This document shows positions 37,025 through 63,825 of a DNA stretch of 64,000 nucleotides, in pieces (position 1 is the stretch's first letter; each line of letters opens with the position of its first letter). The position numbers and the translations under genes are program-made. The notes beneath the pieces were generated by a model, which worked only from the letters and a program-made list of their open reading frames with translations, did no database searches and was not told the origin of the DNA. The stretch covers positions 1 to 64,000 of the forward strand of contig JAURCS010000002.1 of assembly GCA_030828385.1 (NCBI GenBank). Direction: 5' to 3'. Source of the DNA: Gammaproteobacteria bacterium. GTDB lineage: Bacteria > Pseudomonadota > Gammaproteobacteria > Pseudomonadales > Pseudohongiellaceae.

Positions 37025-38578
37025 ATGTTCTATACCCAATCAATTAGACTGATTGTTTTATTTTTCTGTGCCACCTCAGCAGTCTTGGCTCAGGATGCAG
37101 GCAATTTAGCCGATGCAGCCATGAAAGGTGATGCGATCCTTGTCGGACAATTGCTGGATCAGGGAGCAAACCCCGATGAATCAGGTCAGTTCGGCACCTC
37201 GGCAATACACTGGTGCGTTGAAGCTGAAAATATTGACCTGTTGAGTAAATTGCTGGCTGCTGGAGCTAACCCGGATCTTGAAACCTCTTATGGGGTAAGG
37301 CCCCTGGTTCTGGCTGTAGAGAAAGGTAGTACTGCCATGGTGGAACTATTGCTTGATGCTGGCGCCGACCCTGAGACACTGGATAATGCCGGGCAAAGTG
37401 CATTGATGCTCGCCGCACAGTCAGGCGAACTGGCCAATGTCAGCGCCTTGATCGAATCGGGTGCCAGCATTGACAGAACTGACGAACATTTTGGCCAAAC
37501 GGCACTCATGTTTGCCGCCCGCGCCGGGCATATCAATAACGTAGATTACCTTTTGAATCAGGGCGCTGATCCAGATGCCAGAACCGATACAGGCGAAACC
37601 CCGAACTGGGTAGCTCCCAATTCTCAGCGTGGATTCGGGTTCGGCATTGGCATTATTCGCGGTGGGACTCCTGCCGATCGCGGAAGACGGGAGCCTGTGC
37701 CAGGAGGGATGACACCACTATTGTATGCGGCTCGTCATGGTTATACAGAAATTGTTGATCTTCTATTGCAGCAAGGAGCTGATATTCAACTATCAGAAGC
37801 CAATAATATCAGCCCCTTGTTAATGGCAGTCGAGAATAACCAGGTTGAAACCGCTACCTTGCTTATTGCACAGGGGGCTGATCTTGATCAACAGGACTGG
37901 TATGGCAGATCGCCTTTATGGGAAGCGATCAACGTCAGAAATCTTTATATTCACAATGACCTGTTTGATAACTTTGTAAACAATCGCAACGAACTGCTCG
38001 AGCTGATAAAACTGCTTGTTGAGAAAGGCGCGAATATCAATGTGCGAACCAGTGAATCCCCGCCAATACGTCACCATTTATTATCCATCACAGGTACGCT
38101 GGAATGGGTAGATTTTACCGGGCAGACGCCTTTTATTCGTGCAGCCAGGGCTGGCGATATGGCGGTTCTGGAATTGCTACTTCATCATGATGCAGATCCA
38201 CTCATAACCACCTATGCAGGAACTAATGCCTTGATGGCAGCCGCTGGCATCAACTGGGTGGTTTCCCAGACCTGGACAGAGTCATCAGAGAATTTGCTGG
38301 CAGCGGTAAAATTATGTTTTGAACTGGGTATGGATGTTAATCATGTGAATTCAATGGGGCTGGCGGCAATCCATGGGGCGGCCAACCGGGGCTCCAATGA
38401 AATTATTGAATTTCTGGTTGAGAACGGCGCAAGGCTCGATATCATGGACAATGAAGGCAGAACCCCTCTCGACTGGGCCAAGGGTGTATTTTTAGCCACC
38501 CACCCGGCAGAAGAAAAGCCCGAATCAATGGCACTCATTACGCAACTGCTTGAAGAAAGAAATATGCCGGTTAAATAA
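37025..38578 (+). CDS. Secreted ankyrin-repeat protein, triad A
   Basis: 517 residues with a Sec signal peptide (ending AVLAQDAG). Nearly all the rest is ankyrin repeats, with consensus pieces such as GQSALMLAAQSGELANVSAL, GQTALMFAARAGHINNVDYL, TPLLYAARHGYTEIVDLLLQ and LAAIHGAANRGSNEIIEFLV. Roughly ten or more repeats are visible. A short Gly/Arg-rich insert (FGFGIGIIRGGTPADRGRRE) interrupts the array near the middle. Its stop TAA touches the ATG of the diheme protein. A scaffold binding the other two triad proteins in the periplasm is a reasonable inference. Confidence 0.9.
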   Translation: MFYTQSIRLIVLFFCATSAVLAQDAGNLADAAMKGDAILVGQLLDQGANPDESGQFGTSAIHWCVEAENIDLLSKLLAAGANPDLETSYGVRPLVLAVEKGSTAMVELLLDAGADPETLDNAGQSALMLAAQSGELANVSALIESGASIDRTDEHFGQTALMFAARAGHINNVDYLLNQGADPDARTDTGETPNWVAPNSQRGFGFGIGIIRGGTPADRGRREPVPGGMTPLLYAARHGYTEIVDLLLQQGADIQLSEANNISPLLMAVENNQVETATLLIAQGADLDQQDWYGRSPLWEAINVRNLYIHNDLFDNFVNNRNELLELIKLLVEKGANINVRTSESPPIRHHLLSITGTLEWVDFTGQTPFIRAARAGDMAVLELLLHHDADPLITTYAGTNALMAAAGINWVVSQTWTESSENLLAAVKLCFELGMDVNHVNSMGLAAIHGAANRGSNEIIEFLVENGARLDIMDNEGRTPLDWAKGVFLATHPAEEKPESMALITQLLEERNMPVK

Positions 38579-40864
38579 ATGCTGATACCAGGAAAAAATC
38601 CATTAATCGCTTTTGTATTGACGAGCTCTTTGTTGTCACTACCGGCATTGTCTGTGTTGGCACAGGATGTGCGGGATTTTATCGATGAGTATTGCGTCAA
38701 ATGCCACAATTTTGAAGATTGGGCCGGCAGCCTTGATATGGGCGCTCTGGATTTTGAGCATGTAGAAAATGATGCCCAAATCTGGGAGTTAATGATTAGA
38801 AAAGTCCGCATCGGCATGATGCCACCGGTAGGTGAAGAACGCCCCGACAATACCATGATGCAGAATTTTGCCAGAACCATTGCCTCTCAACTCGACAGCA
38901 CTATTGAATCAATTCCAGCATCGCCAGGTGTACACAGATTAAATCGGGTGGAATATGGCAATGTCATCAGGGATCTGTTTGCGCTTGATATTGATGTGTC
39001 CACCTTACTGCCAAGGGATAATTCTAGTGAAGGCTTTGATAACATAGCTGCCTCGCTGGGCTTTTCCCCGGCGCTGATTCAGGCCTATACATCGGCCGCC
39101 ATGAAAATAAGCCGCTGGTCAGTGGGTGACATCACTACGTCGGAAGTCTCAACAGCTTACCTGCCGCCGCCAGATTATATGCAGGACCGACATATTGACG
39201 GCATGCCTCTTGGCACCCGGGGCGGCATAAAAATAACCCATAACTTTCCTCTTGATGCGCAGTACGATATCAATGTCGGCGCCAGACTATTCAGTTTTAA
39301 CAGTGGCAGTGGCAGGCAATTATCCTCGACGCTGGATTTTACCATCGACGGGCAAGCAGTAGAGCTGACCAATAACAGCATCAGCAGGATTCCATTAACA
39401 GCTGGGCCCCATACCATCACTGCCGCCATTATTGATAATCGAAAATCTACCGGCGTTAACAATATTTACAAGGAATCCAGTATTGAAGGTAATGTAAACC
39501 GAATCGAGATAACCGGTCCCTTTAATGCCAGCGGTACTGGCACCACCCCGAGCCGGGAAAAAATATTTACCTGTTACCCGGCCACCAATGATGACGAAGT
39601 TTCATGTGCAAAAACCATAGTACAAAACCTTGCCAGCAAGGCTTTTCGCCAACCCGCGACAGAAAACCAGGTTGAATCCATCATGGTCTTTTACCAGAAC
39701 GGTTATGAAGAAGGTGGTTTTGAAAGCGGAATCCAGCAGGCCATCTCTCGTATATTGGTTGACCCGCAGTTTCTTGTCCGCTTTGAAGAAGAGCCGCAAG
39801 ATTTGCTTCCCGGTGAAAGATACCCGGTCAGCGATCTTGAACTGGCCTCAAGGTTATCGTTTTTTCTCTGGAGCAGTATTCCAGATGAGGAATTGATAGA
39901 ACTGGCGCTTGCTGAACGTTTGCATGAACCCGATATCCTCAAGGCCCAGGTCAACCGAATGCTTGCCAATGACAAGTCCGGTGCGCTGGTGGAAAACTTC
40001 GCCGGGCAATGGCTTTTTCTGCGTGACATGGAAAGTGTTACGCCGGAAGAAGGAAAGTTTAATGACAATTTGCGTATGGCTTTTATCAGGGAAACCCAGT
40101 TGTTGGTGGCAAGCATCATAGAGGGAGACTTACCGGTCACGGAGTTTCTCGATGCGCAATATACCTATCTCAACTCTCGCCTTGCCGAGCATTACGGTAT
40201 TCCCGGCGTCAAAGGCTCTGCTTTCAGAAAAGTCAGCTTGCCGGCAGACAGCCCCAGAAGAGGGTTGCTTGGCCATGGCAGTATTCTGACGGTGACCTCA
40301 ACGGCCAGCCGTACATCACCGGTCATTCGAGGCAGCTGGATTCTGGAAAACCTGCTCAGTGCCCCCGTACCAGCCCCTCCTCCCGGCGTAGAAACCAATC
40401 TTGATGGTGATGGCTCATCTGTAATTACCACTTCGGTCAGGGAAAGGCTAGAGCAGCACCGCCAGGATCCGGTGTGCAGTTCCTGTCACAGTGTTATTGA
40501 TCCTGTTGGCTTTGCTCTGGAGAATTTTGACCTGGTAGGCGCCTGGCGCGAATATGATGGTGATTCAAAAGTAAATCCCTCTGGCACACTGCTGGATGGC
40601 ACCGAGCTGAATGGACCTTCGGATCTTAGAAATTCCCTGATGAGCTATTCAGAATTATTTGTTGAAACCTTAACCGAAAAATTAATGACCTATGCCCTGG
40701 GACGTGAACTTGAGTACTTTGACATGCCGACTATGCGTTCAATAGTCAGGGAGGCAGAAAAAGAGGATTACAGATTCGCCTCCATTATCAAGGGTATCGT
40801 GACAAGTGACCAGTTCCTGTACAGGGTAAAATCAGATGGCGCGCACATCGCAGGTAGTCAGTAG
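38579..40864 (+). CDS. Diheme DUF1587/1595/1592/1588/1585 protein, triad A
   Basis: 761 residues, signal peptide ending SVLAQ. An N-terminal heme motif CVKCH (39-43) is followed by DUF1587 (HRLNRVEYGNVIRDLFALDI from 119), a carbohydrate-binding-like middle, DUF1595 (SCAKTIVQNLASKAFRQPA), DUF1592 (LASRLSFFLWSSIPDEELIE), DUF1588 (LGHGSILTVTSTASRTSPVI) and DUF1585. A second heme motif CSSCH (633-637) precedes IDPVGFALENFD. Family known from planctomycetes, myxobacteria and some proteobacteria, function not established. Probably a periplasmic redox protein. Confidence 0.88.
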   Translation: MLIPGKNPLIAFVLTSSLLSLPALSVLAQDVRDFIDEYCVKCHNFEDWAGSLDMGALDFEHVENDAQIWELMIRKVRIGMMPPVGEERPDNTMMQNFARTIASQLDSTIESIPASPGVHRLNRVEYGNVIRDLFALDIDVSTLLPRDNSSEGFDNIAASLGFSPALIQAYTSAAMKISRWSVGDITTSEVSTAYLPPPDYMQDRHIDGMPLGTRGGIKITHNFPLDAQYDINVGARLFSFNSGSGRQLSSTLDFTIDGQAVELTNNSISRIPLTAGPHTITAAIIDNRKSTGVNNIYKESSIEGNVNRIEITGPFNASGTGTTPSREKIFTCYPATNDDEVSCAKTIVQNLASKAFRQPATENQVESIMVFYQNGYEEGGFESGIQQAISRILVDPQFLVRFEEEPQDLLPGERYPVSDLELASRLSFFLWSSIPDEELIELALAERLHEPDILKAQVNRMLANDKSGALVENFAGQWLFLRDMESVTPEEGKFNDNLRMAFIRETQLLVASIIEGDLPVTEFLDAQYTYLNSRLAEHYGIPGVKGSAFRKVSLPADSPRRGLLGHGSILTVTSTASRTSPVIRGSWILENLLSAPVPAPPPGVETNLDGDGSSVITTSVRERLEQHRQDPVCSSCHSVIDPVGFALENFDLVGAWREYDGDSKVNPSGTLLDGTELNGPSDLRNSLMSYSELFVETLTEKLMTYALGRELEYFDMPTMRSIVREAEKEDYRFASIIKGIVTSDQFLYRVKSDGAHIAGSQ

Positions 40865-40898: not shown

Positions 40899-42224
40899 AT
40901 GGCCAATTTTATCAGTAAAAAACATCTGTCACGCAGAACCCTGCTCAGAGGCGCAGGTTCCATGTTGGCGTTGCCATTACTGGAATCGATGATTCCCGCC
41001 GGCACACTTAAAGCACAGGAAAGTATGTCAAAAACCCGTTTCGGGGCAATTTATTTTCCTCATGGCGCCACCATGTCAAAGTGGACTCCGCGTAATGAAG
41101 GAAAGAATTTTGAGTTTTCTGAAATTCTCAAGCCTCTGGAGTCGTTCAGGGATCAGGTCAACGTAGTAAGTAATCTGACACTGCCGCTGGCCTATGGACC
41201 CGGTGGCGCGACAGCCAATCACAATAGATCGGCAGCCAGCTTTCTCAGTGGCGCAAAACCCCTGCGTGGGGCAACTCCCGAACTTGGCGTGACCATTGAT
41301 CAGATCATTGCCAGGGAATTGAACCGGGATACCCCTTTGCCCTCCCTTGAACTCACCATAGAGGAAGCCACCATTAGCTGTGGCGAAGGCTTGAGTTGCG
41401 CTTATCGAAATACCATTTCCTGGCAGTCTCCACTTTCGCCACTGCCTATGCAGAACAACCCGCAGGTAGTCTTTGAACAATTATTTGGGGACGGCGCCAC
41501 ACCCGCGCAACGGGAAGCCAGAAGAAAACAGTCGCTGAGTCTGCTTGATGCTGTTTCCGAACAATTATCCTCTTTGGACAAGACACTGCCGGCCAGTGAC
41601 AAAGTGAGACTGGAGCAATACCTGACTGATATCCGGGAAATTGAGAGACGAATTGTTCAGGCGGGCGAAAAGGTGTCGGACGATGTTGCCGTTCCAGACA
41701 AACCCAATGGCATACCTGCAGATGTGGAGGAGCATATTAAACTGATGTATGACCTGCAGGTACTGGCCTGGCAGACAGAGATCTCCAGGGTATCAACCTT
41801 TCTTATGGCCAAGGAACTAAGCGGCGCCATCTATCCCGCCAGTGGCGTAAGGGATGGATTTCATACCCTTTCCCATCATTCCAACAATGAAGACAACAAG
41901 GCCAGGTTTGCCCTGTTGAATCGCTATCATGTCAGTCTGCTGGGTTATTTTCTGGATAAGCTCAAGTCTACGCCAGATGGAAACGGTAACCTGCTTGATC
42001 ACTCCATGATTCTCTATGGTAGCGGTATGAGTGATGGAAACTCCCACAACCATGATCCCCTGCCTGTCATTTTGGCGGGCGGTGCCTCCGGAAGGCTGGA
42101 GGGAAACCGCCATATAGTGATGTCTGAAAAAACCCAAATGTCCAACTTGCTTCTGGCAATGCTTTACAAACTGGATATCGAGCAGGACAGCTTTGGCGAC
42201 AGTAACGGCACCGTAATGATTTAA
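40899..42224 (+). CDS. Tat-exported DUF1552 protein, triad A
   Basis: 441 residues, GGAGG upstream of ATG. Tat leader FISKKHLSRRTLLRGAG, cut near LKAQE. DUF1552 landmarks: RFGAIYFPHGATMSKWTP, SFLSGAKPLRG, a Cys pair in ISCGEGLSCAYRNTISW, MAKELSGAIYP, LLDHSMILYGSGMSDGNSHN and GGASGRLEGNRH. The family is always found near DUF1592 proteins in my knowledge, and its activity is not established. It lies 34 bases after the diheme gene and is followed by a hairpin terminator. Confidence 0.88.
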   Translation: MANFISKKHLSRRTLLRGAGSMLALPLLESMIPAGTLKAQESMSKTRFGAIYFPHGATMSKWTPRNEGKNFEFSEILKPLESFRDQVNVVSNLTLPLAYGPGGATANHNRSAASFLSGAKPLRGATPELGVTIDQIIARELNRDTPLPSLELTIEEATISCGEGLSCAYRNTISWQSPLSPLPMQNNPQVVFEQLFGDGATPAQREARRKQSLSLLDAVSEQLSSLDKTLPASDKVRLEQYLTDIREIERRIVQAGEKVSDDVAVPDKPNGIPADVEEHIKLMYDLQVLAWQTEISRVSTFLMAKELSGAIYPASGVRDGFHTLSHHSNNEDNKARFALLNRYHVSLLGYFLDKLKSTPDGNGNLLDHSMILYGSGMSDGNSHNHDPLPVILAGGASGRLEGNRHIVMSEKTQMSNLLLAMLYKLDIEQDSFGDSNGTVMI

Positions 42225-47378: not shown

Positions 47379-47972
47379 CTACCAGCCTTCATCCAAAGGC
47401 AGCTCAGTATTGGCCTTGATATTCAACACCGCACAATGGTGATAGGTGAAGCCGCCTTCGCGGAAACCGGGATGCTCTTCCATAAACTGTACCACCTGTA
47501 AAAAGCAGCCTTCACAGTCGATATTCGGCATGGAAATTTCAGTTTCCAGCGGACCGGTACGTCGCTCCTGATTAGCCCACAAACCATCCAGGATGACCGG
47601 TGCCGCAGGTTCCATTGCCACCGGCGCATAATCCGAGCGCGGACCGCGATCAGTGTCTTTCATCACCGCTTCAGGATCAGCCGGCAGCCAGTTTATGCGT
47701 CTGGCCAGCGCAACCCGATAATGTCCCGGATGGTAAATGGTTTCTTCTATTGCAAGGCGCAGCATGGCGCCGCCCATGACGTCGGTCACCACGCCAGTAC
47801 GGGTACCACCATCAGCCACAGTCCCGCCGCAGGGTGCCATTTTCTGCGGATCGCCACGCTCATCCTCTTCTATCCAGGAGGCGGGTGAATTCAACTTGAA
47901 ATGACCATAGCTGTTGGCGGCCATCAGGCTAAAGGCCAGTCCAAGACCGGTTTTCAAAAAAGGATTAAGCAC
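47379..47972 (-). CDS. SCE4755-type LPMO-like copper protein
   Basis: 197 residues from a GTG at 47972, chosen because AAGGGAG lies seven bases upstream and the signal peptide starts there (VLNPFLKTGLGLAFSLMAAN). The cut before HFKLNSPASW leaves an N-terminal His, as needed for the histidine brace of lytic polysaccharide monooxygenases. A second His lies in IYHPGHYRVAL. PQKMAPCGG and DCEGCFLQVVQFMEE carry Cys that may form disulfides. Family known as SCE4755 polysaccharide monooxygenase-like; activity unproven. Confidence 0.75.
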   Translation of the reverse strand: MLNPFLKTGLGLAFSLMAANSYGHFKLNSPASWIEEDERGDPQKMAPCGGTVADGGTRTGVVTDVMGGAMLRLAIEETIYHPGHYRVALARRINWLPADPEAVMKDTDRGPRSDYAPVAMEPAAPVILDGLWANQERRTGPLETEISMPNIDCEGCFLQVVQFMEEHPGFREGGFTYHHCAVLNIKANTELPLDEGW

Positions 47973-48209
47973 ATCAAACTCCCTTGTAATACTCCTACAC
48001 ACGGCGGAGTTATTATGAGTAACGAAGTGGAAATTTATCACAGACAGAAATAAAAAAAAGCAGGCAATAAATACACTTCATTTCTTTGCCTACCTAACGG
48101 GTAAGTCTAAATCACTTATGGAACCTCTGATTAATCTTATTTCACACTTTTTTGGCAATTATGGGCAATACAGTGGTAAATTTGTAAGTTGTTCTTATGG
48201 GGGATAATT

Positions 48210-50973: not shown

Positions 50974-51192
50974 ACCCTGCTTATAACTATAGTTATTCTT
51001 TGCGTCATAAATCTATATGTGGCACTATTTCACGACTTTTTCTGATCTTTTAGCAGTAGATTCGTATCAGCAAACATAAAAAAATTAGGTTCTTATTAAA
51101 CGCACTGTCAGAATAGAAGCCTCATTATTTAGCAATTAGCTCCTTACCTCTGATAAATAGTACGTTACCATCAATTGTTGAGGGGGACTTGC

Positions 51193-52788
51193 ATGATGGA
51201 TATCCAAAAAAAGGGATTTTTCCCTGCTGTGCTTGCAGTGACACTTGTACTAACCGGTACTCTCTGGGATATAGACAAAGCCTATTCCTCTGCCACCATG
51301 GTGGATGCCGCCCGCGCTGATGACCAGACACAGTTGCAGCAAATGATCAATAACGGTGCTGATGTGAATATTCCAGCGCCTGATGGCACTACCCCTTTGC
51401 TTTGGGCAGTATTTAATTCATCCTCGGACATGGTTCAATTATTACTTGATGCAGACGCTGATCCAAATATTCCCAATAAGCTTGGAATAACCCCTTTACT
51501 GCAGGCTAGCCGTTATGGCGATGCCAGCATGATTAATATGCTAATCAGCAGTGGGGCCAATCTTGTGCACAGCGGACTCGGTGTAGAATCTCCGCTCATG
51601 TCCGCAGCACGATCCGGCAACACCCAGGCACTAAAGGCCCTTCTTGAGGCTGGCGCCAATCCCAATGCCAGTGAGCCTGTTGATAATCAGACTGCCCTGA
51701 TGTGGGCAACAGCCGAAGGTCATCTGGATGTTGTCAAGATACTGCTTGATGCTGGTGCCGATCCCAACATGCAATCCCGTGTATCAGAACTGACAAAACG
51801 CAAAAACGCTGATTTTCCATCAGGCGGTTTTGCGCCCCTGCACTGGGCAGCACGCAACGGCGACGAAGCAATGATCAGAACCCTGCTTGATGGCGGCGCT
51901 AACATTAATGTCAGAAATGGTGATGATTCCACGCCGATGATGCTGGCGATAGTGAATGACCGTTTTGATATTGCCGCCCTGCTGCTGGATCTTGATGCTG
52001 ACGCCAATGATGGCTCGCTTTATTTCGCAACCGAGATGCGCGATGCTACCACCGACTGGCGTGCCCGAGACGGAACCATCTTCCGTGCCGATCATCCCAA
52101 CGAACTCAGCGCCATTGACCTTACCCGTCTGTTATTGGAAGCGGGCGCTGATCCCAACAAGCCCTTTATTGGCCAGATGCACAATACTTCAATGTGCTGT
52201 GATACCAAGTCCAACATGACACCATTCTATAGAGCGGCAAAAGCTGCGGATATAGCCGGCCTGAGCATGATGCTTGAATATGGTGCTGATCCGAACTGGA
52301 AGCCGGCATCGGAGACCAAATATGTTGGCATTGATGGTGAAGAAGAAGTCGTTAGCCGCTCTGCCCTAATGGTCGCTATTACCGGCGGCAAGGGAGTCGC
52401 CATTGCCGGCGGCCCCAATGATTTGCGCAACGGACCACCTGACTTTCGGGAAAAAGGCGTGCGTGACCCGGTTCAGGCAGCCAAGCTTCTTCTTGAGGCT
52501 GGTGCCGATGTCAGCGTTAAAGGCCCTGATGATCTTACCGCTCTGCATGTTGCAGCCAATGCCGGCCAGCTCGACATTGTCTATGCCCTTGCAGCCAATG
52601 GCGCATCGCTTACTGCAAAGAACAAGAGTGATCAAACACCACAGGAACTGGTTGAAAATACCCCAGCCAAAAAACCTACTCCCGGTTTTTACTTCGATGC
52701 ACCGCCAGCTTCACAGGAAGAAATTATTGCCGCACTGATTGAATTGGGTAGCATGAACAATACTGGTCAGGGAACTAGCGCACAATGA
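51193..52788 (+). CDS. Secreted ankyrin-repeat protein, triad B
   Basis: 531 residues from the ATG at 51193 (AGGGGG upstream; a second ATG follows at once). N-terminal hydrophobic signal (FFPAVLAVTLVLTGTLW). Ankyrin repeats fill the rest: TPLLWAVFNSSSDMVQLLLD, TALMWATAEGHLDVVKILLD, APLHWAARNGDEAMIRTLLD, TALHVAANAGQLDIVYALAA. Insert with HNTSMCCDTKSNMTPFYRAA near residue 340. Its stop overlaps the next start by ATGA. Same place in the set as the triad A ankyrin protein. Confidence 0.9.
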   Translation: MMDIQKKGFFPAVLAVTLVLTGTLWDIDKAYSSATMVDAARADDQTQLQQMINNGADVNIPAPDGTTPLLWAVFNSSSDMVQLLLDADADPNIPNKLGITPLLQASRYGDASMINMLISSGANLVHSGLGVESPLMSAARSGNTQALKALLEAGANPNASEPVDNQTALMWATAEGHLDVVKILLDAGADPNMQSRVSELTKRKNADFPSGGFAPLHWAARNGDEAMIRTLLDGGANINVRNGDDSTPMMLAIVNDRFDIAALLLDLDADANDGSLYFATEMRDATTDWRARDGTIFRADHPNELSAIDLTRLLLEAGADPNKPFIGQMHNTSMCCDTKSNMTPFYRAAKAADIAGLSMMLEYGADPNWKPASETKYVGIDGEEEVVSRSALMVAITGGKGVAIAGGPNDLRNGPPDFREKGVRDPVQAAKLLLEAGADVSVKGPDDLTALHVAANAGQLDIVYALAANGASLTAKNKSDQTPQELVENTPAKKPTPGFYFDAPPASQEEIIAALIELGSMNNTGQGTSAQ

Positions 52789-55229
52789 AGATAAGAGCCT
52801 TTGTAACAAGCGTTTGTATTGGCGCTATAGGCAGTACACTGGCGCTGGCTGTCTCTGCGGCTGATAATAATTCCGCCCCTGAAGCGATGCTGGCTGAGCA
52901 GTGGTCAATGATTGAAAACTACTGTACCGATTGCCATAACTATGATGAATTCAGAGGGGGCATTTCTCTTGAGGGGCTTGGCCCTGATGATGTGCATGCC
53001 AATCCGGATGTTTGGGAAGAGGTCTTGCGCAAACTTAAGATCAGCGCCATGCCTCCGCGCAAACAGGATCAACCCGCGAAACAACAACGCCAGCGCTTCG
53101 TCGCTGCTCTTGAAAAAACGCTGGATGCAGCCGCCAATGCGGATCCCTATGCCGGGCTGACGACCATTCATCGACTCAATCGCGCTGAATACTCCAATGT
53201 TATTCGTGATTTGTTCGGTCTCGATCTCGACCTCACCGAACTCTTGCCCAGTGACGGCGGCGATTTCGGTTTTGACAATATTGCTGATCTGCTGCGCACT
53301 TCGCCCATGTTGCTGGACCGCTACATGACTGTGGGACTTCGCGTGGCCGACATGGCACTGGGTAATCCGGATGCCTCGTTAAATACCGCGACTCTTAAAA
53401 TCCCCTTTGATACCTCCCAGGACAAGCACCTCAGAGGTCTCCCTATTGGTACCCGTGGCGGTATTGCAACAACCCATTATTTTCCTGCTGATGCCGAGTA
53501 TATCTTTGCTGCGCGCCCACTCAACGGCGTTGCAGAAGGCTATTTTGGTATCGAGGGACATGATCGTCCCCATGAATTTCTGGTGTACGTCGATGGTGAG
53601 GTTGTTTACTCCAGCGAGATCGGCGGCCCTGAAGACCACAAGGTCAGTGTTGAAGATGGCTATGTTAGTGTCATTCCCATCATCGACAAAAAACTCACTT
53701 CGCCAAAAATCCCCATTACTGCAGGCCCCCATGAAGTAATCTTTACCTGGCGTGAACGTGTGTCCGCCGAGCAGAACTCATGGCAACCATCGTTGCGGGC
53801 CTCACTGGAAATCCATAACCCCTCAGGCATGCCACGCCTGGAAGAAGTGCGAATTGAAGGTCCCTATAATGCCACTGGTGTAAGTGATATGGCGACACGG
53901 GACCGGGTCATGACCTGCGAGCCAGAGTCGGTAGCAGAAGAAGATGCCTGCGCAAAAGAAATTCTTACCAAACTTGCCAAACGTGCATTCCGGCGTGCTA
54001 TTACAGAAGATGATATTGCTGCTCCTTTGGCCTTCTATAAAAATGAACGCGCCAGCGGAGGTGACTTTGACCAGGGCATCCGCGCTTCTGTAGCACGCAT
54101 GATAGTCAGTCCGTTTTTCCTGTTCCGCGTCGAGACCGATGCCACTGACACGCCGGATGGAACCGACCAGATGGTTAATGGTTATGAACTGGCCTCACGA
54201 CTGTCGTTTTTCCTCTGGTCCAGTATGCCCGATGATGAATTGTTTGAGCTTGCCGAAAGCGATGCGATCAAGGATGCGGATACGCGCGTTGCGCAGGTAG
54301 AGCGCATGCTGGCAGACCCGCGCGCAGATGAGTTTGTAAAGAATTTCGTCGGCCAATGGTTGCAACTGAGAAATCTGGAAATTCGTGCCCGTCCCGACAT
54401 AAAAATGTTCCCTGACTTTGATGATAATCTACGCAAGGCATTTCGTCAGGAAACAGAAATGCTGTTTGCCCATGTATTGCGGGAAAATCGTCCCGTGCAT
54501 GAACTGCTCACAGCAAACTATACTTTTGTTGATGAACGTCTGGCGCGTCATTACGGCATAGAGGGAGTCACCGGCGCACGCTTTCGCAAGGTCAACGTCG
54601 AAGACAGCAACCGGTGGGGATTATTTGGCCATGGCTCACTGCTGTCACTGACCTCGGCATCAAGCCGCACCTCGCCGATTATGCGAGGAAAATTCATCCT
54701 CACAGAATTCTGGAACAATCCTCCACCGGCCGCTCCAGCCAACGTGCCGGCACTGGAAGCAAGTGCTCCTGTAGATCGTCCATCAACAGTTCGTGAACAA
54801 CTTGAGAGGCATCGCGCCGACCCGGCTTGTGCTGCCTGTCATGATTTTATAGATCCGGTGGGCTTTGCTCTGGAGAATTTCGATGTAGACGGTTCCTGGC
54901 GCGACACTACCCGTGAAGGCCTAAAGATTGATTCCACCGGGATTCTGCTTGATGGAACGCCCGTTAATGGGCCCGCAGCACTGCGAAATGCGCTGCTGGC
55001 AGATCCGGAACTATTTGCCAGTACAGTTACTGAAAAGCTACTGGTATACTCTTTGGGTCGTGGACTCATCCCGAGGGACATGCCTGTAGTCCGGGAAATT
55101 GTGAGACACGCCGCTCAGAGCGATTATAGCCTGATGTCGATAATTCTGGGGATTGTGGAAAGCTATCCTTTCCTCATGCGAACCAATAGTTCGGCGTCAG
55201 ATATTAACGCCATAGCCACTAGTGACTGA
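52785..55229 (+). CDS. Diheme DUF1587/1595/1592/1588/1585 protein, triad B
   Basis: 814 residues, signal peptide ending AVSAAD. Heme motif 1 is CTDCH (47-51). DUF1587 follows (HRLNRAEYSNVIRDLFGLDL), then DUF1595 (CAKEILTKLAKRAFRRAIT), DUF1592 (LASRLSFFLWSSMPDDELFE), DUF1588 (FGHGSLLSLTSASSRTSPIM) and DUF1585. Heme motif 2 is CAACH (682-686) before FIDPVGFALENFD. Translationally coupled to the ankyrin gene. Same architecture as 38579-40864 and 61354-63825. Confidence 0.88.
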   Translation: MKIRAFVTSVCIGAIGSTLALAVSAADNNSAPEAMLAEQWSMIENYCTDCHNYDEFRGGISLEGLGPDDVHANPDVWEEVLRKLKISAMPPRKQDQPAKQQRQRFVAALEKTLDAAANADPYAGLTTIHRLNRAEYSNVIRDLFGLDLDLTELLPSDGGDFGFDNIADLLRTSPMLLDRYMTVGLRVADMALGNPDASLNTATLKIPFDTSQDKHLRGLPIGTRGGIATTHYFPADAEYIFAARPLNGVAEGYFGIEGHDRPHEFLVYVDGEVVYSSEIGGPEDHKVSVEDGYVSVIPIIDKKLTSPKIPITAGPHEVIFTWRERVSAEQNSWQPSLRASLEIHNPSGMPRLEEVRIEGPYNATGVSDMATRDRVMTCEPESVAEEDACAKEILTKLAKRAFRRAITEDDIAAPLAFYKNERASGGDFDQGIRASVARMIVSPFFLFRVETDATDTPDGTDQMVNGYELASRLSFFLWSSMPDDELFELAESDAIKDADTRVAQVERMLADPRADEFVKNFVGQWLQLRNLEIRARPDIKMFPDFDDNLRKAFRQETEMLFAHVLRENRPVHELLTANYTFVDERLARHYGIEGVTGARFRKVNVEDSNRWGLFGHGSLLSLTSASSRTSPIMRGKFILTEFWNNPPPAAPANVPALEASAPVDRPSTVREQLERHRADPACAACHDFIDPVGFALENFDVDGSWRDTTREGLKIDSTGILLDGTPVNGPAALRNALLADPELFASTVTEKLLVYSLGRGLIPRDMPVVREIVRHAAQSDYSLMSIILGIVESYPFLMRTNSSASDINAIATSD

Positions 55230-55287: not shown

Positions 55288-56622
55288 ATGTTCATTTCAA
55301 AGAAACATCTCAGTCGCAGGACGCTTCTTAAGGGAACGGGAGCCGCCATTGCACTGCCCTTGCTTGATGCAATGGTGCCAGCCGCTACGGCACAATCACA
55401 AACTGCAGCAGCAGCGAAACTCCGCTTTGGTACAGTTTATGTACCCAATGGTATATTTCCCGCTGACTGGCACCCGGATAAAGCAGGCAAGGATTTCGAA
55501 TTCAAACGCGTGATGAAGCCGATTGAGCCGTTTCGCAATTATGTCACCACAATCAGCCGTCTGAAATCACCCGAAGGCAACCAGGATATGGGAGGCATTC
55601 ACATGGGTGCCAGCTCTGCATTCCTGAACGGCGCCGGTCCCCTTAGTGAAAATGGTGATTTCAATGAACTGCGTTCCAAAAAGACTGTTGACCAGTACAT
55701 TGCCGATGCCATCGCTGGCGATACCCCCTTGAGATCCCTGGAACTGGGTACTGAAGACATGGGCACCTCTGCCGGAGCCTGCGACAACTACCCATGCATG
55801 TATTTCAACACCCTGTCCTGGTATGACGATCATAGCCCACTGCCCGTTGGTATTAGCCCGCAGGTCACCTTTGAACGCATGTTCGGCGATCCAGGCACCC
55901 CCGAGCAACGTCTGCGTCGACTGGAAACCAAGCAAAGCATGCTGGACTCAGTGCTTGACGAATCCAAACGTCTGGAAGGTATGCTCGGAGCAAGCGACAA
56001 CGCCTTGCTGGAAGAATATATGACCAATATTCGTCGTATTGAACTGCAGGTACAGAAACTGTCGAATCGTTCTTCGGTGATTGCCAACACCTCCGGTGGT
56101 CCGGTTGGTATTCCTGATGACTTCGACGAGCATATGAATGTAACCTATGACCTGATGCATCTTGCCTACCAGGGTGACATGACGCGTGTGTTCAGCTTTT
56201 TAACCGGTCATGAAGCCAGTGGTCGCAGTTATGCCCACATCGGGGTGAATGAACCTCACCATAATGTCACCCATCACCAGAATACCGAAGAAAGTATTAC
56301 CCGGTACGCCAAGATCACCACTTACCAGATGCAGAAGTTTGCTGATTTCGTTGCCAAACTGGATGCGACACCCGATGGTGATGGTTCATTGCTGGATTCT
56401 ACGCTGCTGTATTTTGGCGCAGGCATGAGTAATGGTCTAGAACATGATCGACATAACGTACCGGCCCTGCTGGTAGGTAGTGCTGGAGGCCGCCTGCAAG
56501 GCAACCGCCATATTCAGGCCAGGGAAGACGAACCTACGTCCAACCTGTTACTTGGCATAGCGGATTTGATGGGAGCGGAAATCGATACTATTGGTATCGC
56601 AACAAGTCGCTTCCTGCTTTAA
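55288..56622 (+). CDS. Tat-exported DUF1552 protein, triad B
   Basis: 444 residues, AGGAGAATAAGA upstream. Leader MFISKKHLSRRTLLKGTG with twin Arg, cut near ATAQSQ. RFGTVYVPNGIFPADWHP, SSAFLNGAGPLS, the Cys pair in GACDNYPCMYFNTLSW, LTGHEASGRSYAH, HHNVTHHQN, LYFGAGMSNGLEHDRHN and GGRLQGNRH mark DUF1552. His-rich segments could bind a metal. A strong terminator follows. Confidence 0.88.
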   Translation: MFISKKHLSRRTLLKGTGAAIALPLLDAMVPAATAQSQTAAAAKLRFGTVYVPNGIFPADWHPDKAGKDFEFKRVMKPIEPFRNYVTTISRLKSPEGNQDMGGIHMGASSAFLNGAGPLSENGDFNELRSKKTVDQYIADAIAGDTPLRSLELGTEDMGTSAGACDNYPCMYFNTLSWYDDHSPLPVGISPQVTFERMFGDPGTPEQRLRRLETKQSMLDSVLDESKRLEGMLGASDNALLEEYMTNIRRIELQVQKLSNRSSVIANTSGGPVGIPDDFDEHMNVTYDLMHLAYQGDMTRVFSFLTGHEASGRSYAHIGVNEPHHNVTHHQNTEESITRYAKITTYQMQKFADFVAKLDATPDGDGSLLDSTLLYFGAGMSNGLEHDRHNVPALLVGSAGGRLQGNRHIQAREDEPTSNLLLGIADLMGAEIDTIGIATSRFLL

Positions 56623-57887: not shown

Positions 57888-58355
57888 TTATTTTCGGGTT
57901 ATAGCGTTACTTTCAGCACCAACTAAAAAATTCTGACCATCCCGCAAAGCGGTGGTCAATGCCATGATGTGCTGCACGGTAATGCCGTAATAGGTGTTGT
58001 AGGAAACGTCCAGCGCACTGGAGGCCAGGTTCAATACCTTGGTATAGAGTCGCCCTGGTGGATTCTTGCTGCCAAAACGCGGAGCACTTTTAAACATCCC
58101 TTCCAGTGTCAGCTCTCCCAGTGAAACCATTACCTGGGTCATGTTATCGGTTATCTCACCATCCATGCCGATGGCAAGTTCCATTGCCGCCTGGGCTATT
58201 TGATCGGCACTGGCAGTGGCGCTTGTCACGCCTTCTGGCAAGGCCTCAATGATGGCTTGCCGGGTTGCCCTATCATTGGCAACCTGGGCACTGACTGAAA
58301 GCGCACTCATGGAACAGATTATTAAAAGTGTCAGCAGCAGTTTTTTTATATTCAT
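57888..58355 (-). CDS. Secreted hypothetical protein of triad C
   Basis: 155 residues with signal peptide ending LSVSAQVA. The rest is helical with no Cys: ADQIAQAAMELAIGMDG, MVSLGELTLEGMFKSAPRFG and RLYTKVLNLASSALDVSYNT. I do not recognise the family. Its start overlaps the ankyrin stop by ATGA, so it is translationally coupled to it and likely part of the same complex or pathway. Neither of the other two triads has it. Confidence 0.65.
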   Translation of the reverse strand: MNIKKLLLTLLIICSMSALSVSAQVANDRATRQAIIEALPEGVTSATASADQIAQAAMELAIGMDGEITDNMTQVMVSLGELTLEGMFKSAPRFGSKNPPGRLYTKVLNLASSALDVSYNTYYGITVQHIMALTTALRDGQNFLVGAESNAITRK

Positions 58356-59854
58356 TGCTGCTGACCTGTGAGGCTGTCGATAAATGCCACCGTATCCATA
58401 TGCCCCATATCCCGGGCAAGATCGCGCGGTGTATAACCACCCACATCGCGCACACTAAAATCCACCCCCTGCTCCCAGGCGAATTGCAGGGCTTCATTCC
58501 AACCTGCTTTTGCTGAACCATGAGCAACATTTTGACCGTTGGCCGCCAGCTGATGAATATCAGCCCCGGCAGCCAGTAATAGTGACATGATCGCGGCAGC
58601 ATCCGCTCCGGTTTTATAAGCCCCGGAGATCGGTGTTTCCATAAATATGCCATAAACGCGCCAGACTCCTGCCGCGCTATGCATGGGCGTTACTTCGTAG
58701 ACCATATTGGCGATATCGACCCGTGCGCCAAATTCCAGCAACAGTTTCACTGCCTCAACGTCACCACTCTTGGCGGCGTTATGCAGGGCTGTGGCGCCGC
58801 CACTGAGTACCCGGGAATCCGGACCCGCATCGGTATAAGCGCGATCCCCCCCGGAGCGGTAGGGCGGTTCTTTTTTCAGTCGCATATCCACATAGGCGCC
58901 TTTTTCCAGCAGCGTTCTGGCAATATCAAGCGCAGTCAACGTGTCTGTTGACGGCAGATCGCCACGACGACTACTCGGTATCAGGTGCAGATCAATGGCA
59001 GAATATAGGGGTGTTCGCCCATACCAGTCCCAGCGCTGAATATCGGCACCTCGCTCAATCAGGATATTGGCGGTATCGTAATGCAGGTTTTGCAAGGCCA
59101 TCAGCAAGGGGGTGCCACTATCGATATCAGTCAGATTAATGTCCGCCCCTGCATCAAGTAGCGCTTCCACACACTCCGCACATCCTTCCCTGGCGGCATA
59201 CAGTAAAGCAGTGAAACCGCCGCGCTGCAGTGGTTTGTTGCGAGGTTCTGACGTAATCCAGCGGGGCCAGTCATGATCTTTTCCCCGGGTGTCTGCTTCC
59301 GCTCCATATTCAAGCAACAGTTTCACCATCTGGGGCTGTTTTTGTGATGCCGCCCACATCAGGGCAGTCTGACTGCCCCAGTTTTCCACCGCATTTACAT
59401 TTGCGCCACGCTCTAGCAGCAGTCTAGCAGTTTCAGTATTGCCTGTTCTGGCCACCGCCATTAACAGTGTCTGGCCTTCAGTATTGGGTGACTCGATATC
59501 ACCGCCGGCATCCACCAGCGCTTTCATAATGGCAAAGTCACCATGAACGGCCGCCACGGTCATGGGACTGGCGTGATAATCATTGCTCTTATCCGGGTCA
59601 GCACCCTGTTTCAGAAGTGTCTCAACCAGCTCAAGATCGTTTTTATAAACCGCCCAGTGCAGGGCCGTGGTGCCATCTACGGACAGCGTATTGACATCGG
59701 CGCCGGCGGCAAGCATTTCCATGACTGCAGCACGCTCCCCGGCCTCGGCGATATCCGGCAGCGAAGCAGGCCAGGCAGTATTGGCATTCATTAGCAGAAT
59801 GACCGCGGTCAGGCATGAAACAATGAAGCGAAAGTGGGCTGTTGAAAAAATCAT
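58352..59854 (-). CDS. Secreted ankyrin-repeat protein, triad C
   Basis: 500 residues, signal peptide ending NTAWPASLPD. Repeats: TALHWAVYKNDLELVETLLK, SPMTVAAVHGDFAIMKALVD, TALMWAASQKQPQMVKLLLE, TALLYAAREGCAECVEALLD, TPRDLARDMGHMDTVAFIDS. An insert at the middle (TEPRNKPLQRG region) matches the place of inserts in the other two. It is third in gene order here, after the diheme and DUF1552 genes, unlike triads A and B where it is first. Confidence 0.9.
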   Translation of the reverse strand: MIFSTAHFRFIVSCLTAVILLMNANTAWPASLPDIAEAGERAAVMEMLAAGADVNTLSVDGTTALHWAVYKNDLELVETLLKQGADPDKSNDYHASPMTVAAVHGDFAIMKALVDAGGDIESPNTEGQTLLMAVARTGNTETARLLLERGANVNAVENWGSQTALMWAASQKQPQMVKLLLEYGAEADTRGKDHDWPRWITSEPRNKPLQRGGFTALLYAAREGCAECVEALLDAGADINLTDIDSGTPLLMALQNLHYDTANILIERGADIQRWDWYGRTPLYSAIDLHLIPSSRRGDLPSTDTLTALDIARTLLEKGAYVDMRLKKEPPYRSGGDRAYTDAGPDSRVLSGGATALHNAAKSGDVEAVKLLLEFGARVDIANMVYEVTPMHSAAGVWRVYGIFMETPISGAYKTGADAAAIMSLLLAAGADIHQLAANGQNVAHGSAKAGWNEALQFAWEQGVDFSVRDVGGYTPRDLARDMGHMDTVAFIDSLTGQQQ

Positions 59855-59869: not shown

Positions 59870-61201
59870 CTAAACCTCCGAGAAAATCCCTGTACTGTTG
59901 CCAAGGGATTCCACTCCGGAAATACCGGCACGTTCCAGCAGCGTAAGAATCAGGTTGGCATGGGGCGTATTCGCTGCATAACTCAGATGCTGACCTCCTT
60001 TCAGGCGGCCATTGGCGCCACCGAAAATAGCTGACGGTAGCGGATTGGCATTATGCGCATTGGAGTCGCTCATATTGCTGCCAAACAGCAGGATTGAATG
60101 GTCGAGAATGGAGCCATCACCATCTGCCGTGTTGTTTAAACGATCCAGGAACCTGGCAAAGATTTTGGAGTGGTAGGTCTGAATGACTGCACATCTGTCC
60201 ATCTTGTCCTGCACATAGCGATGATGGGACAGCGGATGGTAGGCATCCGAAATTCCTACCTGATTGTAGGTCAGCATACTTATTTCTGCCGACAACATCA
60301 TGGAAGCAACCCGGGTTAAATCCGCCTCATAGGCCAGCGCTGTCAAATCAAACATCAAGTTTATATGTTCTTCCCAGTTTCCGGGCACGCCCAGAGGAGC
60401 ATCCGGAATATCCAGGCCACTGAAATCCTGTTCGCCAAGCTTTTCAACCTGACGTTCCACATCACGCACTGAATCCAGATATTCATCCATGCGCTGGCGA
60501 TCAGCACTACCCAGTCGGCCATTCAGGGAAGTAGCACTTTCCGCCACCAGATCCAGCAGGCTGAACTTCTGATTCATGATGGAGTCGCGTTCTTTTGCCG
60601 TATCACCCTGGCCGAACATGCGGAAAAATAATTTACGTGGATTATGCTCCATTGGTAATGGCTGCGTTCGGGTTCTAAAGGAAATAGTGGAACCATAACC
60701 ACAACCCAGGTTGCTGTCGCAAGCACCGGCACTTGAGGCCTTCACTTCAGTACAAAGTTCGATGGAAGGAAAAGGCGTGTCCTGACCAATGGTCTGGGCC
60801 GCAATCTGGTCGGCGGAGATACCGTAATTTGGATCATTCTCATCAACAGTAAAAGGCGATGCGCAACTTAACCAGGTACCTGGTGACGTAGCATGCACCC
60901 CGGCGCCTTCGGCGGCAGTATTGCGCAGGTTACTGACAATGGTCATCTGCTCTTTATAGGCTGCCAGAGGTCTTAGAATCGGTGTTAATTCAAAATCGGA
61001 GCCGACGCTGGCAGGCGTCCACTTATCCATAATGGCGCCATGGGGAAAATAGAAAAATCCCAGTTTGGCTTTGGGGGCCGCAGCAGTCTGTGCCAGGGCC
61101 GTGCCTGCCGGAATCATGGCATCCAGTAATGGCAGGGCAATTGCTGTACCCGCCCCCCTTAACAGGGTTCTGCGTGACAGGTGCTTTTTAGAAATAAACA
61201 T
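59870..61201 (-). CDS. Tat-exported DUF1552 protein, triad C
   Basis: 443 residues, GGGGAAGAGAT upstream. Leader MFISKKHLSRRTLLRGAG with twin Arg, cut near TALAQTA. KLGFFYFPHGAIMDKWTP, the Cys pair in GACDSNLGCGYGSTISF, MLSAEISMLTYNQVG, HPLSHHRYVQDK, ILLFGSNMSDSNAHN and GGANGRLKGGQH are the usual DUF1552 landmarks. It is 15 bases from the ankyrin gene, and 152 bases follow the diheme gene before it. Confidence 0.88.
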   Translation of the reverse strand: MFISKKHLSRRTLLRGAGTAIALPLLDAMIPAGTALAQTAAAPKAKLGFFYFPHGAIMDKWTPASVGSDFELTPILRPLAAYKEQMTIVSNLRNTAAEGAGVHATSPGTWLSCASPFTVDENDPNYGISADQIAAQTIGQDTPFPSIELCTEVKASSAGACDSNLGCGYGSTISFRTRTQPLPMEHNPRKLFFRMFGQGDTAKERDSIMNQKFSLLDLVAESATSLNGRLGSADRQRMDEYLDSVRDVERQVEKLGEQDFSGLDIPDAPLGVPGNWEEHINLMFDLTALAYEADLTRVASMMLSAEISMLTYNQVGISDAYHPLSHHRYVQDKMDRCAVIQTYHSKIFARFLDRLNNTADGDGSILDHSILLFGSNMSDSNAHNANPLPSAIFGGANGRLKGGQHLSYAANTPHANLILTLLERAGISGVESLGNSTGIFSEV

Positions 61202-61353: not shown

Positions 61354-63825
61354 CTAATTTGCTGCCGCCAGAGTTTCATTGTCGGCGTTATGCTTCATAC
61401 GAAACTGCTCACTGTTCACGATATTCAGAACCAGCGCCGAGAAGCGGTAATCATCGCCCTCTGCTTCCCGTACAATACGCCTTACTGTTGGCATATCCTG
61501 ATATTCGATACTGCGACCCAGGCCAAAGGTCATCAGTTTTTCGGTAAATGTTTGCACAAACTGATCCGGCCTGCTCAGGATTGCCTGCCGCAGGGCAACC
61601 GGACCATCAACGGGAGTGCCATCTGCCAGCACCCCGGAAGAATCGATGGGTGTTCTGGCCTGACGATCATTATCACGCCAGCGTCCAACCGCATCAAAAT
61701 TTTCCAGGGCAAAGCCGAGCGGATCAATCACCCCGTGACAGCCATTGCAGGACGGGTTAACCCGATGCATTTCAAGGCGCTCCCTTACCGTGGTGTATTC
61801 CTGACCTTCTTCTATCTCAACAAAACCTTCCACATCTGGCGGTGGTGCTGCTGGCGGTGTACCCATGATGTTTTCCAGTAGCCAGGCCCCGCGTAATACC
61901 GGTGAGGTACGATTTGGATAGGACGACACCATGAGTACCCCGCCTTTCCCCAGAATGCCCCAACGTCTTTCATCTGCCAGTGTGACCTTGCGAAATTCTG
62001 AACCACGAATGCCATTGAAGCCGTAATGCAAGGCCAGGTTTTCATTCAGGTATGTATGATCTGCGGTAAGTAAATCCAGTACACTGCGATCTTCACTGAA
62101 TATACTCTGCATAAACAGCAGGGCTTCCTGTGTCAGATCTGCCCTGATATTGCCATCAACATCACGAAACAGTTTTCCATCAGGGGTAATATTTTCAAGC
62201 TCAGCCAGACCCAGCCATTGATAGCCAAAATTACGCGCCAGATTCTCCGCGCGCGGATCTTTCAGCATTCTCTTAACCTGCTGTTCCAGTATCACCGGAT
62301 CTTTCAGCCCGTCATCGATGGCAATCTCCAGCAATACTTCATCAGGAATTGAGCTCCAGAGAAAAAAAGACAGCCGTGATGCCAGCTCCAGACTGCTAAG
62401 CTCAAAGGTGGCGCCGGGCGGCAATGACTCGGGTACTGGTTCCAGCCGGTAAAGGAATTTCGGGTGTACCAGAATGCCTGACAAGGCAAAGGATATCCCT
62501 TTCTCAAAACCGCCATCGGCATAACCCGCCTGATACATGCGCATTAACAGTTCGCTATCTTCATCCGCCAGAAATCCACGAAAGGCTTCACTGGCAAGAT
62601 CTGTGATGATGTTTCTTGCACAGGTTACTTCTTCCACATCATTGTCCGGGTGGCAGGAAAAGATTCTGTCGCGACTGGGTGTTGAGCTTAATCCCGTGGC
62701 ATTAACCGGACCATAGATTTCAAACTGCCGGACATCGACAATAGCATCCTGGCCCTTTCGCGGGGTCAACTGCTGCAAGGGGGCGTCTGATTCAGCAAAG
62801 GAGCGATGCAGAAAAAACACGGCAACTTTATGGGGACCCGCCGTAGTCGTTAGGGGAATATCGCGGATTCTTGCATTAAGGGCATCCACAGCCGGGGCGC
62901 GCAGCTTGTCCAGTTGCTCCGCTTCCTCCATGCCGCCAATGGTTGTTTCGAAAAATTTCCTGCCATCAATAGTGGCGATCAGAGTATTACCATGCTCCAT
63001 ACTGCCAACTGCCAGCCCCGATGCCATGCTGGCAATATTCAGCAGGTAGTCACCATCACTGGGGAAATAATGCTCCACTACGGCGCCGCCCCGCGAGCCC
63101 AGTGGTAAACCATCAATATGAAATGACTGTCCAACTGTTGAAAAGGAGTACGGCGTACCCGATGCTCTGGCAGTTGCCGAACCAATCGCCTGCTCACTGA
63201 CCACTCTGGCAGCACCAAGGTACTGATCAATAAAGGAAGGTGTTACCTGCAAGGCGGTAGCTATATTGTCAAAACCATCTTCTGCACCATCAACCGGAAG
63301 CAGTGCCGCCGGATCGATATCCAGCTTTAACAAATCCCTGATGGCATTGGCATATTCAGTCCGATTCAGGCGATGCAGCAGTTTCTCACCAGGGTCGACA
63401 AATTCTGCAGGTTGATCGAGATTACCCTCCAGCCAGGCTACAAATTGATTGATCTGCTGATTGGCAGGCTTTTCCTGGCCCGGAGGTGGCATCATTCTGC
63501 CACGCAGCTTTCGTACCACTTTTTCCCAGACCTCGGCATCTGCACTAATGGCATTGTGATCCAGCAGATCAAAGGCAAGCCCTCCGCTGTAATCATCGAG
63601 ATTGTGGCAATCGACACAATATTCACTGAGCAGGGCCCATTGTGTTTCTGCCTGCGCCTCCAACTCTGACGGCGAAAGAATGGCCGTCTCAACTGGCATA
63701 TCGGCAACAGCTGATCCGTCGTTATCGCGGCAAGCCGCCAGTAACAGAAATGAAGCCAACAGCACGCCGGCCCTGAATTTCAGGCCAAGGCTATTCACGG
63801 ACTTTGCTTGAGGAACGATAACCAT
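61354..63825 (-). CDS. Diheme DUF1587/1595/1592/1588/1585 lipoprotein, triad C
   Basis: 823 residues. A lipoprotein signal, SFLLLAACRD with Cys32, sets it apart from triads A and B, which have cleaved Sec signals. Heme motif 1 is CVDCH (70-74). DUF1587 (HRLNRTEYANAIRDLLKLDI), DUF1595 (CARNIITDLASEAFRGFLA), DUF1592 (LASRLSFFLWSSIPDEVLLE), DUF1588 (LGKGGVLMVSSYPNRTSPVL) and DUF1585 follow, with heme motif 2 CNGCH (693-697) before VIDPLGFALENFD. First gene of the minus-strand run, in effect. Confidence 0.88.
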   Translation of the reverse strand: MVIVPQAKSVNSLGLKFRAGVLLASFLLLAACRDNDGSAVADMPVETAILSPSELEAQAETQWALLSEYCVDCHNLDDYSGGLAFDLLDHNAISADAEVWEKVVRKLRGRMMPPPGQEKPANQQINQFVAWLEGNLDQPAEFVDPGEKLLHRLNRTEYANAIRDLLKLDIDPAALLPVDGAEDGFDNIATALQVTPSFIDQYLGAARVVSEQAIGSATARASGTPYSFSTVGQSFHIDGLPLGSRGGAVVEHYFPSDGDYLLNIASMASGLAVGSMEHGNTLIATIDGRKFFETTIGGMEEAEQLDKLRAPAVDALNARIRDIPLTTTAGPHKVAVFFLHRSFAESDAPLQQLTPRKGQDAIVDVRQFEIYGPVNATGLSSTPSRDRIFSCHPDNDVEEVTCARNIITDLASEAFRGFLADEDSELLMRMYQAGYADGGFEKGISFALSGILVHPKFLYRLEPVPESLPPGATFELSSLELASRLSFFLWSSIPDEVLLEIAIDDGLKDPVILEQQVKRMLKDPRAENLARNFGYQWLGLAELENITPDGKLFRDVDGNIRADLTQEALLFMQSIFSEDRSVLDLLTADHTYLNENLALHYGFNGIRGSEFRKVTLADERRWGILGKGGVLMVSSYPNRTSPVLRGAWLLENIMGTPPAAPPPDVEGFVEIEEGQEYTTVRERLEMHRVNPSCNGCHGVIDPLGFALENFDAVGRWRDNDRQARTPIDSSGVLADGTPVDGPVALRQAILSRPDQFVQTFTEKLMTFGLGRSIEYQDMPTVRRIVREAEGDDYRFSALVLNIVNSEQFRMKHNADNETLAAAN

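Follow-up and report, generated by a model that had tools for sequence, protein, structure and literature searches.

In the course of annotating a 64,000-nucleotide stretch of a gammaproteobacterial genome of the family Pseudohongiellaceae (hereafter the window; bases 1-64000 of the 125 kb contig C72), we analysed three sets, A, B and C, of a gene trio encoding an ankyrin-repeat protein, a diheme protein with DUF1592-type domains and a DUF1552 protein. The source genome comprises 2.62 Mb in 149 contigs and is listed as 100% complete. Among described proteins, one counterpart of the diheme member is Cbp2D of Cellvibrio japonicus, which is built from a carbohydrate-binding module (CBM) and YceI-like, FN3, X183, DUF1587 and X132 domains, with one CxxCH motif each in X183 and X132 (PMC8981238). 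According to a 2024 Teredinibacter paper, the X183 domain of Cbp2D could donate electrons to a lytic polysaccharide monooxygenase (LPMO), slowly, and no donation from the TtX183 domains to TtAA10 was seen (PMC10916295). A 2025 study describes cbp2D and cbp2E as essential for growth on insoluble cellulose and puts forward the hypothesis that a heterodimer cleaves the polymer directly (PMC12542752); the part proposed for Cbp2D in cellulose use goes further than supplying an LPMO. A CBM2-DUF1592 protein of Cellvibrio also appears in a lignocellulose secretome list (PMC6004670).

Compared by description, the layout of the diheme protein of the trio agrees with the cytochrome domain, DUF1587 and C-terminal CxxCH domain that Cbp2D combines in one exported protein, and from domain order X183-DUF1587-X132 may correspond to the layout seen here; the CBM, YceI-like and FN3 domains of Cbp2D, by contrast, have no Pfam match in the three window diheme proteins. 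In freshwater Verrucomicrobia, He et al. (2017) placed PSCyt3 genes, which belong to the same multi-domain cytochrome type, usually beside one gene of an unknown family, and state that the functions of such genes are entirely unknown (PMC5615132). DUF1552 is counted three times in the text index of that paper and the word is absent from its main text; ankyrin likewise has 0 occurrences in the main text (PMC5615132), and the divergent Verrucomicrobia pairs surveyed here have an ankyrin gene in 0/23 cases. The pairing of a DUF1592-type gene with a neighbour was known before. A third parallel is Cj1386 of Campylobacter, encoded downstream of katA, which a review associates with heme trafficking and full catalase activity and which its reference list calls ankyrin-containing (PMC4518328). 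By description, it resembles the trio in being an ankyrin protein encoded beside a heme protein and differs in having a catalase as partner where the trio has a diheme c-type protein. A literature search whose coverage excluded most subscription journals found no report of an ankyrin link and no paper naming both DUF1592 and DUF1552.

Composition and divergence of the sets

Open reading frames, Pfam matches and a motif scan bear out the nine genes described in the initial annotation. In set A, on the plus strand, an ankyrin-repeat protein of 517 aa with a hydrophobic leader (37025..38578) abuts a diheme protein of 761 aa (38579..40864) with CxxCH at residues 39 and 633, followed by a DUF1552 protein of 441 aa (40899..42224) with an RR leader of the twin-arginine translocation (Tat) type, an HxxSHH motif and a predicted alkaline-phosphatase-superfamily fold. 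Set B, also on the plus strand, opens with an ankyrin-repeat protein with a hydrophobic leader (51175..52788), for which a TTG start is taken here; the triad itself holds, and the start formerly placed at 51193 is an alternative in-frame ATG. The start of its 814 aa diheme protein (52785..55229) overlaps the ankyrin stop by 4 bases, so that the touching or overlapping of these two genes reported for A and B is seen in both, and its DUF1552 protein (55288..56622, 444 aa) carries the motif variant HxxTHH. Set C lies on the minus strand and consists of a diheme protein of 823 aa with a lipobox-like leader (61354..63825), a DUF1552 protein of 443 aa (59870..61201) and an ankyrin-repeat protein of 500 aa with a hydrophobic leader (58352..59854). 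Just upstream of its diheme gene, the window end cuts a metallo-beta-lactamase (MBL)-fold gene, a frequent companion of such sets, of which the 3' part lies in the window (63895..64000, minus strand) and which is complete at C72 63895-64860 (L013:3896-4861). All three diheme proteins show the domain order DUF1587, 1595, 1592, 1588, 1585, with every Pfam match above its cut-off, and exactly two CxxCH motifs; all three DUF1552 proteins match PF07586 and open with a KKHLSRRTLL leader.

These are three of the 12 complete sets in the source genome, which has 15 DUF1592 matches (PF07631), 17 DUF1552 matches (PF07586; a split gene on C61 accounts for two of them) and 80 Ank_2 matches in 17 open frames. 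Sixteen of the 17 ankyrin genes have a DUF1592 or DUF1552 gene no more than about 1.1 kb away, the exception being C72:94034. Incomplete sets on C99 and C102 are truncated by contig ends, and the stretch retrieved around the diheme gene on C53 contains neither an ankyrin nor a DUF1552 gene. The split DUF1552 gene on C61 (L016:9754-10963) forms two overlapping frames beside an ankyrin gene and is either a decaying set or a sequence error.

Judged by sequence identity, A, B and C are diverged paralogues and not copies of one block: relative to set A, the proteins of B and C are 41% and 44% identical for the diheme member, 41% and 43% for DUF1552, and 29% and 32% for the ankyrin protein. The set on C89 is the nearest to A in all three proteins (diheme 48%, DUF1552 53%, ankyrin 48%) and has the gene order of A; that on C116 is next nearest in DUF1552 (51%) and ankyrin (43%) and has the other order.

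Some loci of the source genome depart from the plain arrangement. At L008:5638-10687 (C72 104637-109686), diheme, MBL-fold and ankyrin genes stand in a row without DUF1552, the MBL-fold protein, with its RR-containing leader, occupying the slot between the diheme and ankyrin genes that DUF1552 would hold. In L012 an MBL-fold gene lies between the DUF1552 and ankyrin genes, and at L003:2625-3200 the same position is taken by a protein of 191 aa that has a CxxCH motif and matches cytochrome c models weakly, a possible electron partner.

Co-location and joint descent

Proximity of the ankyrin gene to its partners was tested against chance in a single-chromosome Vicinamibacterales assembly (G060, chromosome 1, 6.1 Mb), the genome behind locus L089, using A3, an alignment of trio-type ankyrin proteins. 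This chromosome has 40 DUF1552 matches and 49 A3 matches, which merge into 36 ankyrin genes; for 30 of the 36 a DUF1552 match is found no more than 5 kb away, and 31 of the 40 DUF1552 matches are accompanied by an ankyrin gene at this distance. When the ankyrin positions were rotated 10,000 times, an average of 2.8 genes fell within that range, against the 30 observed. Only 2 rotations reached 30, with shifts of 43 and 357 bases; among offsets above 10 kb the maximum was 10. The chance-level proximity that the initial annotation had named as the mark of a local coincidence is therefore not what is seen. Comparable co-location was found in G065 (6/6 ankyrin genes and 6/6 DUF1552) and G059 (15/19 and 15/17), and a lower level in the Verrucomicrobia genome G061 (2/4 and 2/15).

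Copy numbers agree with this pattern. Across 58 related genomes, 37 of them of the same family as the source, DUF1552 and A3 ankyrin counts (E <= 1e-10) correlate with r = 0.904, and within the 37 same-family genomes with r = 0.985, DUF1552 copy number spanning 0 to 19 within this one family. Both genes occur in 22 of the 58 genomes and neither in 19. In the five genomes with DUF1552 alone (G008, G020, G027, G034, G040) all matches are weak, with best E values between 1e-43 and 8e-4, and the best match in the twelve with ankyrin matches alone is 1.3e-34 or weaker, for which reason these matches, 21 of them in G054, are taken as other ankyrin proteins.

Taxonomic breadth was assessed by scanning GTDB species genomes with A1, an alignment of diheme proteins, and taking the best 80 of 586 confirmed relatives, chosen by diheme similarity and not by ankyrin content. 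Among these best 80 loci (E <= 1e-5; some matches partial), an ankyrin protein was detected in 71 with the A3 profile and DUF1552 in 75. By record title they come from Acidobacteria (Vicinamibacteria, Bryobacterales, Terriglobia), Gammaproteobacteria, one member of the Verrucomicrobia and a few sources with other or doubtful labels. A plasmid of Novosphingobium sp. KACC 22771 carries a diheme, a DUF1552 and an ankyrin gene side by side in this order and provides a named organism for testing; the trio spans Acidobacteria, Gammaproteobacteria, an alphaproteobacterium and a verrucomicrobium. A near relative from the Pseudomonadales (L019) has a diheme protein 59% identical to that of set A. Two metagenome-assembled genome records titled Klebsiella pneumoniae (L018) and Akkermansia muciniphila (L090) have doubtful-looking titles; the former holds ankyrin and diheme genes and is cut by its end, and the latter holds all three genes.

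The presence of the ankyrin gene tracks one clade of DUF1592 proteins. To the source-genome and GTDB-scan loci were added 31 DUF1552 regions from the phylum of G061 and 9 from other genera of the window's family, and diheme genes with at least 2 kb on each outer side were scored for an ankyrin match above 100 bits within 3 kb. Clade diheme proteins (>= 750 bits) have an ankyrin gene in 69/73 cases with full flanks, made up of 12/13 in the source genome, 51/54 in the GTDB-scan loci and 6/6 in the family, and divergent Verrucomicrobia diheme proteins (700 bits or less) have one in 0/23. The figure of 69/73 is a recount from 70/74, since L096 and L101 are one locus entered twice. Short flanks excluded 38 clade rows, of which 27 have a match and 11 lack one, as well as 6 divergent rows, where the split is 2 to 4; a second fragment of L044, without an ankyrin match, was excluded too. 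The four full-flank misses in the clade are L092 and three loci that also lack DUF1552 (L011, L061, L044). Counting starts from diheme genes and so leaves out L108, L109, L110, L122 and L137, which have DUF1552 with neither a diheme gene nor an ankyrin match; for L137, from the family genome G007, this holds across the 17.5 kb fetched. On a FastTree tree the 89 rows labelled 'ank' and the 23 labelled 'none' are separated by one change, as were the 90 and 23 before the recount. The split runs through a single genome: in G061 the clade-type pairs L101 and L102 have an ankyrin gene and the other eight fetched pairs do not. In the sample of its phylum, DUF1552 was present in 7/115 Verrucomicrobia genomes.

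The three genes also descend as sets. Among 92 distinct complete sets, 72 have the order diheme-DUF1552-ankyrin, as in C, and 14 the order ankyrin-diheme-DUF1552, as in A and B; 4 have the ankyrin gene in front on the other strand, and 2 are odd calls in overlapping-frame loci. Set C, first described as reordered yet complete, indeed retains all three members, but its order is the common one. Across the three main orders, at least 8 changes are required on the first tree and 9 on the recounted tree, against 15-18 in 20 label shuffles. Pairwise distances in the 12 sets of the source genome correlate at 0.80 for diheme/DUF1552, 0.75 for diheme/ankyrin and 0.73 for DUF1552/ankyrin (Mantel; 0/9,999 permutations as high), and those in 73 sets from elsewhere at 0.75-0.78 (0/999 permutations as high).

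Congruent distances alone do not show contact, because linked genes are co-inherited anyway; linkage alone, in turn, does not explain a trio that stays together through changes of order. Of the initial argument that retention through reordering implies a complex, what stands is one functional unit, given the count correlation of 0.985, the eight or more order changes and the Mantel values of 0.73-0.80. The trio is almost certainly a real functional unit.

Predicted functions and competing explanations

Leaders were judged by simple motif and hydrophobicity rules, without a signal-peptide program and with uncurated start codons; so judged, the 92 complete sets have an RR pattern within the first 60 residues in 88 DUF1552 proteins and a hydrophobic stretch in 80 ankyrin and 74 diheme proteins, and the trio is very probably exported as a whole. 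Of the diheme proteins in these sets, 89 have two CxxCH motifs, 2 have three and 1 has one. In the predicted layout, a cytochrome c domain at the N-terminus is followed by a possible CBM35/36-like domain and the helical DUF1592 core, with the second heme near the C-terminus, an arrangement resembling the one reported for the redox part of Cbp2D; in the structural model of the set A protein, residues 184-319 or so may hold a CBM35/36-like sugar-binding domain. A Foldseek search with the diheme model gave no match at E <= 0.001, PDB sequences gave one match to the diheme profile (E 0.74), and the profile of the N-terminal heme domain retrieved no X183 match from PDB sequences, the best hit being a phage portal protein (E 0.026). 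The fold comparison has no row covering the helical DUF1595-1592-1588-1585 part, and this gap gives no evidence of a new fold.

The DUF1552 protein is predicted to adopt an alkaline-phosphatase/sulfatase fold, with a sequence identity to that superfamily of only 6-14%. The H..[ST]HH motif is found in 90/92 DUF1552 proteins, seven histidines are highly conserved, and H108, D134, H322, H326, H327 and H383 are invariant in 54 rows; unlike in the known superfamily, the nucleophile region seems, by eye, to hold an invariant histidine. No relative of the DUF1552 profile was retrieved from PDB sequences at E <= 1, and a comparison with viral structures gave one sulfatase-like match at E <= 0.001. Given the predicted fold, Tat export is more likely to serve a folded metalloenzyme than the redox cofactor carrier suggested initially. 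Loading of a redox cofactor before export now appears unlikely, and a metal site is more plausible.

We favour, at a probability of roughly 0.45, a reading in which the trio is one exported module occurring in many diverged versions, probably substrate- or condition-specific, each with its dedicated ankyrin protein. The diheme protein, in the periplasm or at the outer membrane, would bind a glycan-bearing or polymeric plant-type substrate and either donate electrons to it or accept them; the DUF1552 enzyme, predicted to be exported folded through Tat and probably with a metal, would act on the same substrate by removing or transferring a group; and an ankyrin solenoid would hold the two together, one dedicated ankyrin protein serving each set. 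Ankyrin repeats have no plausible catalytic role, and binding is therefore their likely job: the ankyrin protein probably binds one or both of its partners. The nature of the substrate as a glycan-bearing or polymeric plant-type compound is put forward tentatively. Some genomes hold some 12 to 30 versions of the set, and many of the soil and water bacteria sampled carry DUF1592-type cytochromes together with DUF1552; with a third partner that is constant, a predicted fold for DUF1552 and what may be a sugar-binding domain in the cytochrome, these two DUFs become a testable three-protein system. A bolder version, which we regard as unlikely, makes the trio a new class of exported oxidative machine that cuts recalcitrant polymers or glycosides, in which the DUF1592 core would be redox-active on substrate held by the CBM-like domain of the protein, DUF1552 would remove a blocking group and the ankyrin solenoid would join both. 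If it were true, the 12 to 30 or so versions in such genomes would form a substrate-specific repertoire, comparable to the polysaccharide utilisation loci of other genomes.

The precedent of Cj1386, an ankyrin-containing heme-trafficking protein encoded beside katA (PMC4518328), suggests another role, that of a dedicated assembly factor which brings heme to the diheme protein or protects it. As a rule there is one ankyrin protein per diheme protein and the two are co-inherited, as such a factor would be. Against this, the divergent DUF1592 proteins with their score of 0/23 manage without an ankyrin partner, and attachment of c-type hemes is already served by general cytochrome c maturation systems. 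Ankyrin distances, moreover, are tied to DUF1552 about as closely as to the diheme protein (partial r of 0.43 and 0.38, respectively, in 74 sets, one locus being entered twice, and 0.32 and 0.41 in the 12 source-genome sets). An assembly role is improbable in our estimation.

We are equally doubtful that the trio consists merely of co-regulated catabolic enzymes for one substrate class, comparable to a polysaccharide utilisation locus and without a physical complex. Operon-like spacing would explain co-inheritance without contact, the DUF1552 copy number is as variable within one family as noted above, and catabolic genes surround the sets of the source genome. Other neighbours, however, such as MBL-fold genes (18 loci) and pyrroloquinoline quinone (PQQ) dehydrogenase genes (15 loci), come and go while the trio stays, and an ankyrin protein, for which catalysis is implausible, likely binds something. 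A local coincidence or a recently duplicated block, as three sets within 27 kb might suggest, has a negligible chance of being correct in view of the rotation test, the clade split, the count correlation, the co-location in other genomes and other phyla, the 41-44% identity of the diheme protein of A to those of B and C, and the spread of sets over many contigs.

Genes around the sets

Neighbouring genes were surveyed in 98 stretches, namely 17 loci of the source genome, part of the window and the best 80 of the 586 GTDB-scan loci, some source-genome stretches overlapping. The commonest neighbour is a secreted family present in 31 loci; a 24-member neighbour cluster considered as a transposase proved to be this secreted-protein family, and the transposase assignment was rejected. 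Members occur in the window at 23979-30856, 45962-47023 and 56696-57814, most of those scanned having no Pfam match and the one at 56696-57814 matching DUF6152. MBL-fold neighbours number 20 genes in the 18 loci, 16 of the 20 lying within 400 bases of a set gene; they score above the Pfam Lactamase_B cut-off and also match quinoprotein-relay hydrolase models, though under the thresholds of these. A 134-residue family found in 10 loci begins like DUF6152 proteins.

The genes around the sets of the source genome include a tannase, pcaIJ and pcaF, and the window adds a VanA-type oxygenase, a PnpD-type protein, a gluconolactonase-like protein, a PQQ dehydrogenase and a transporter that matches an aromatic-acid symporter model below its cut-off. 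Both VanA_C proteins of the genome are encoded close to sets, at distances of about 14 kb and 3 kb, as are two of its three RPE65-type proteins, at about 1.4 and 6.7 kb. With 15.9% of the genome within 15 kb of a set gene, the proximity of 4/5 oxygenases has P of about 0.003, for families that were picked after being seen near sets. At 47379-48041 on the minus strand, an SCE4755-family polysaccharide monooxygenase-like protein matches NF043005 above cut-off and is the sole match in the genome.

An Rfam scan of the window gave no match at gathering score. Elsewhere in the window, two adjacent minus-strand proteins of about 880 aa (15226-20631) carry G8 and CEMIP beta-helix domains, a type best known from animal hyaluronan-related proteins. 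An AcrB-type pump, a CusB/CusF-type adaptor and an outer-membrane protein (2528-8552, minus strand) look like a metal efflux operon, and the domain scan also found an NhaB gene.

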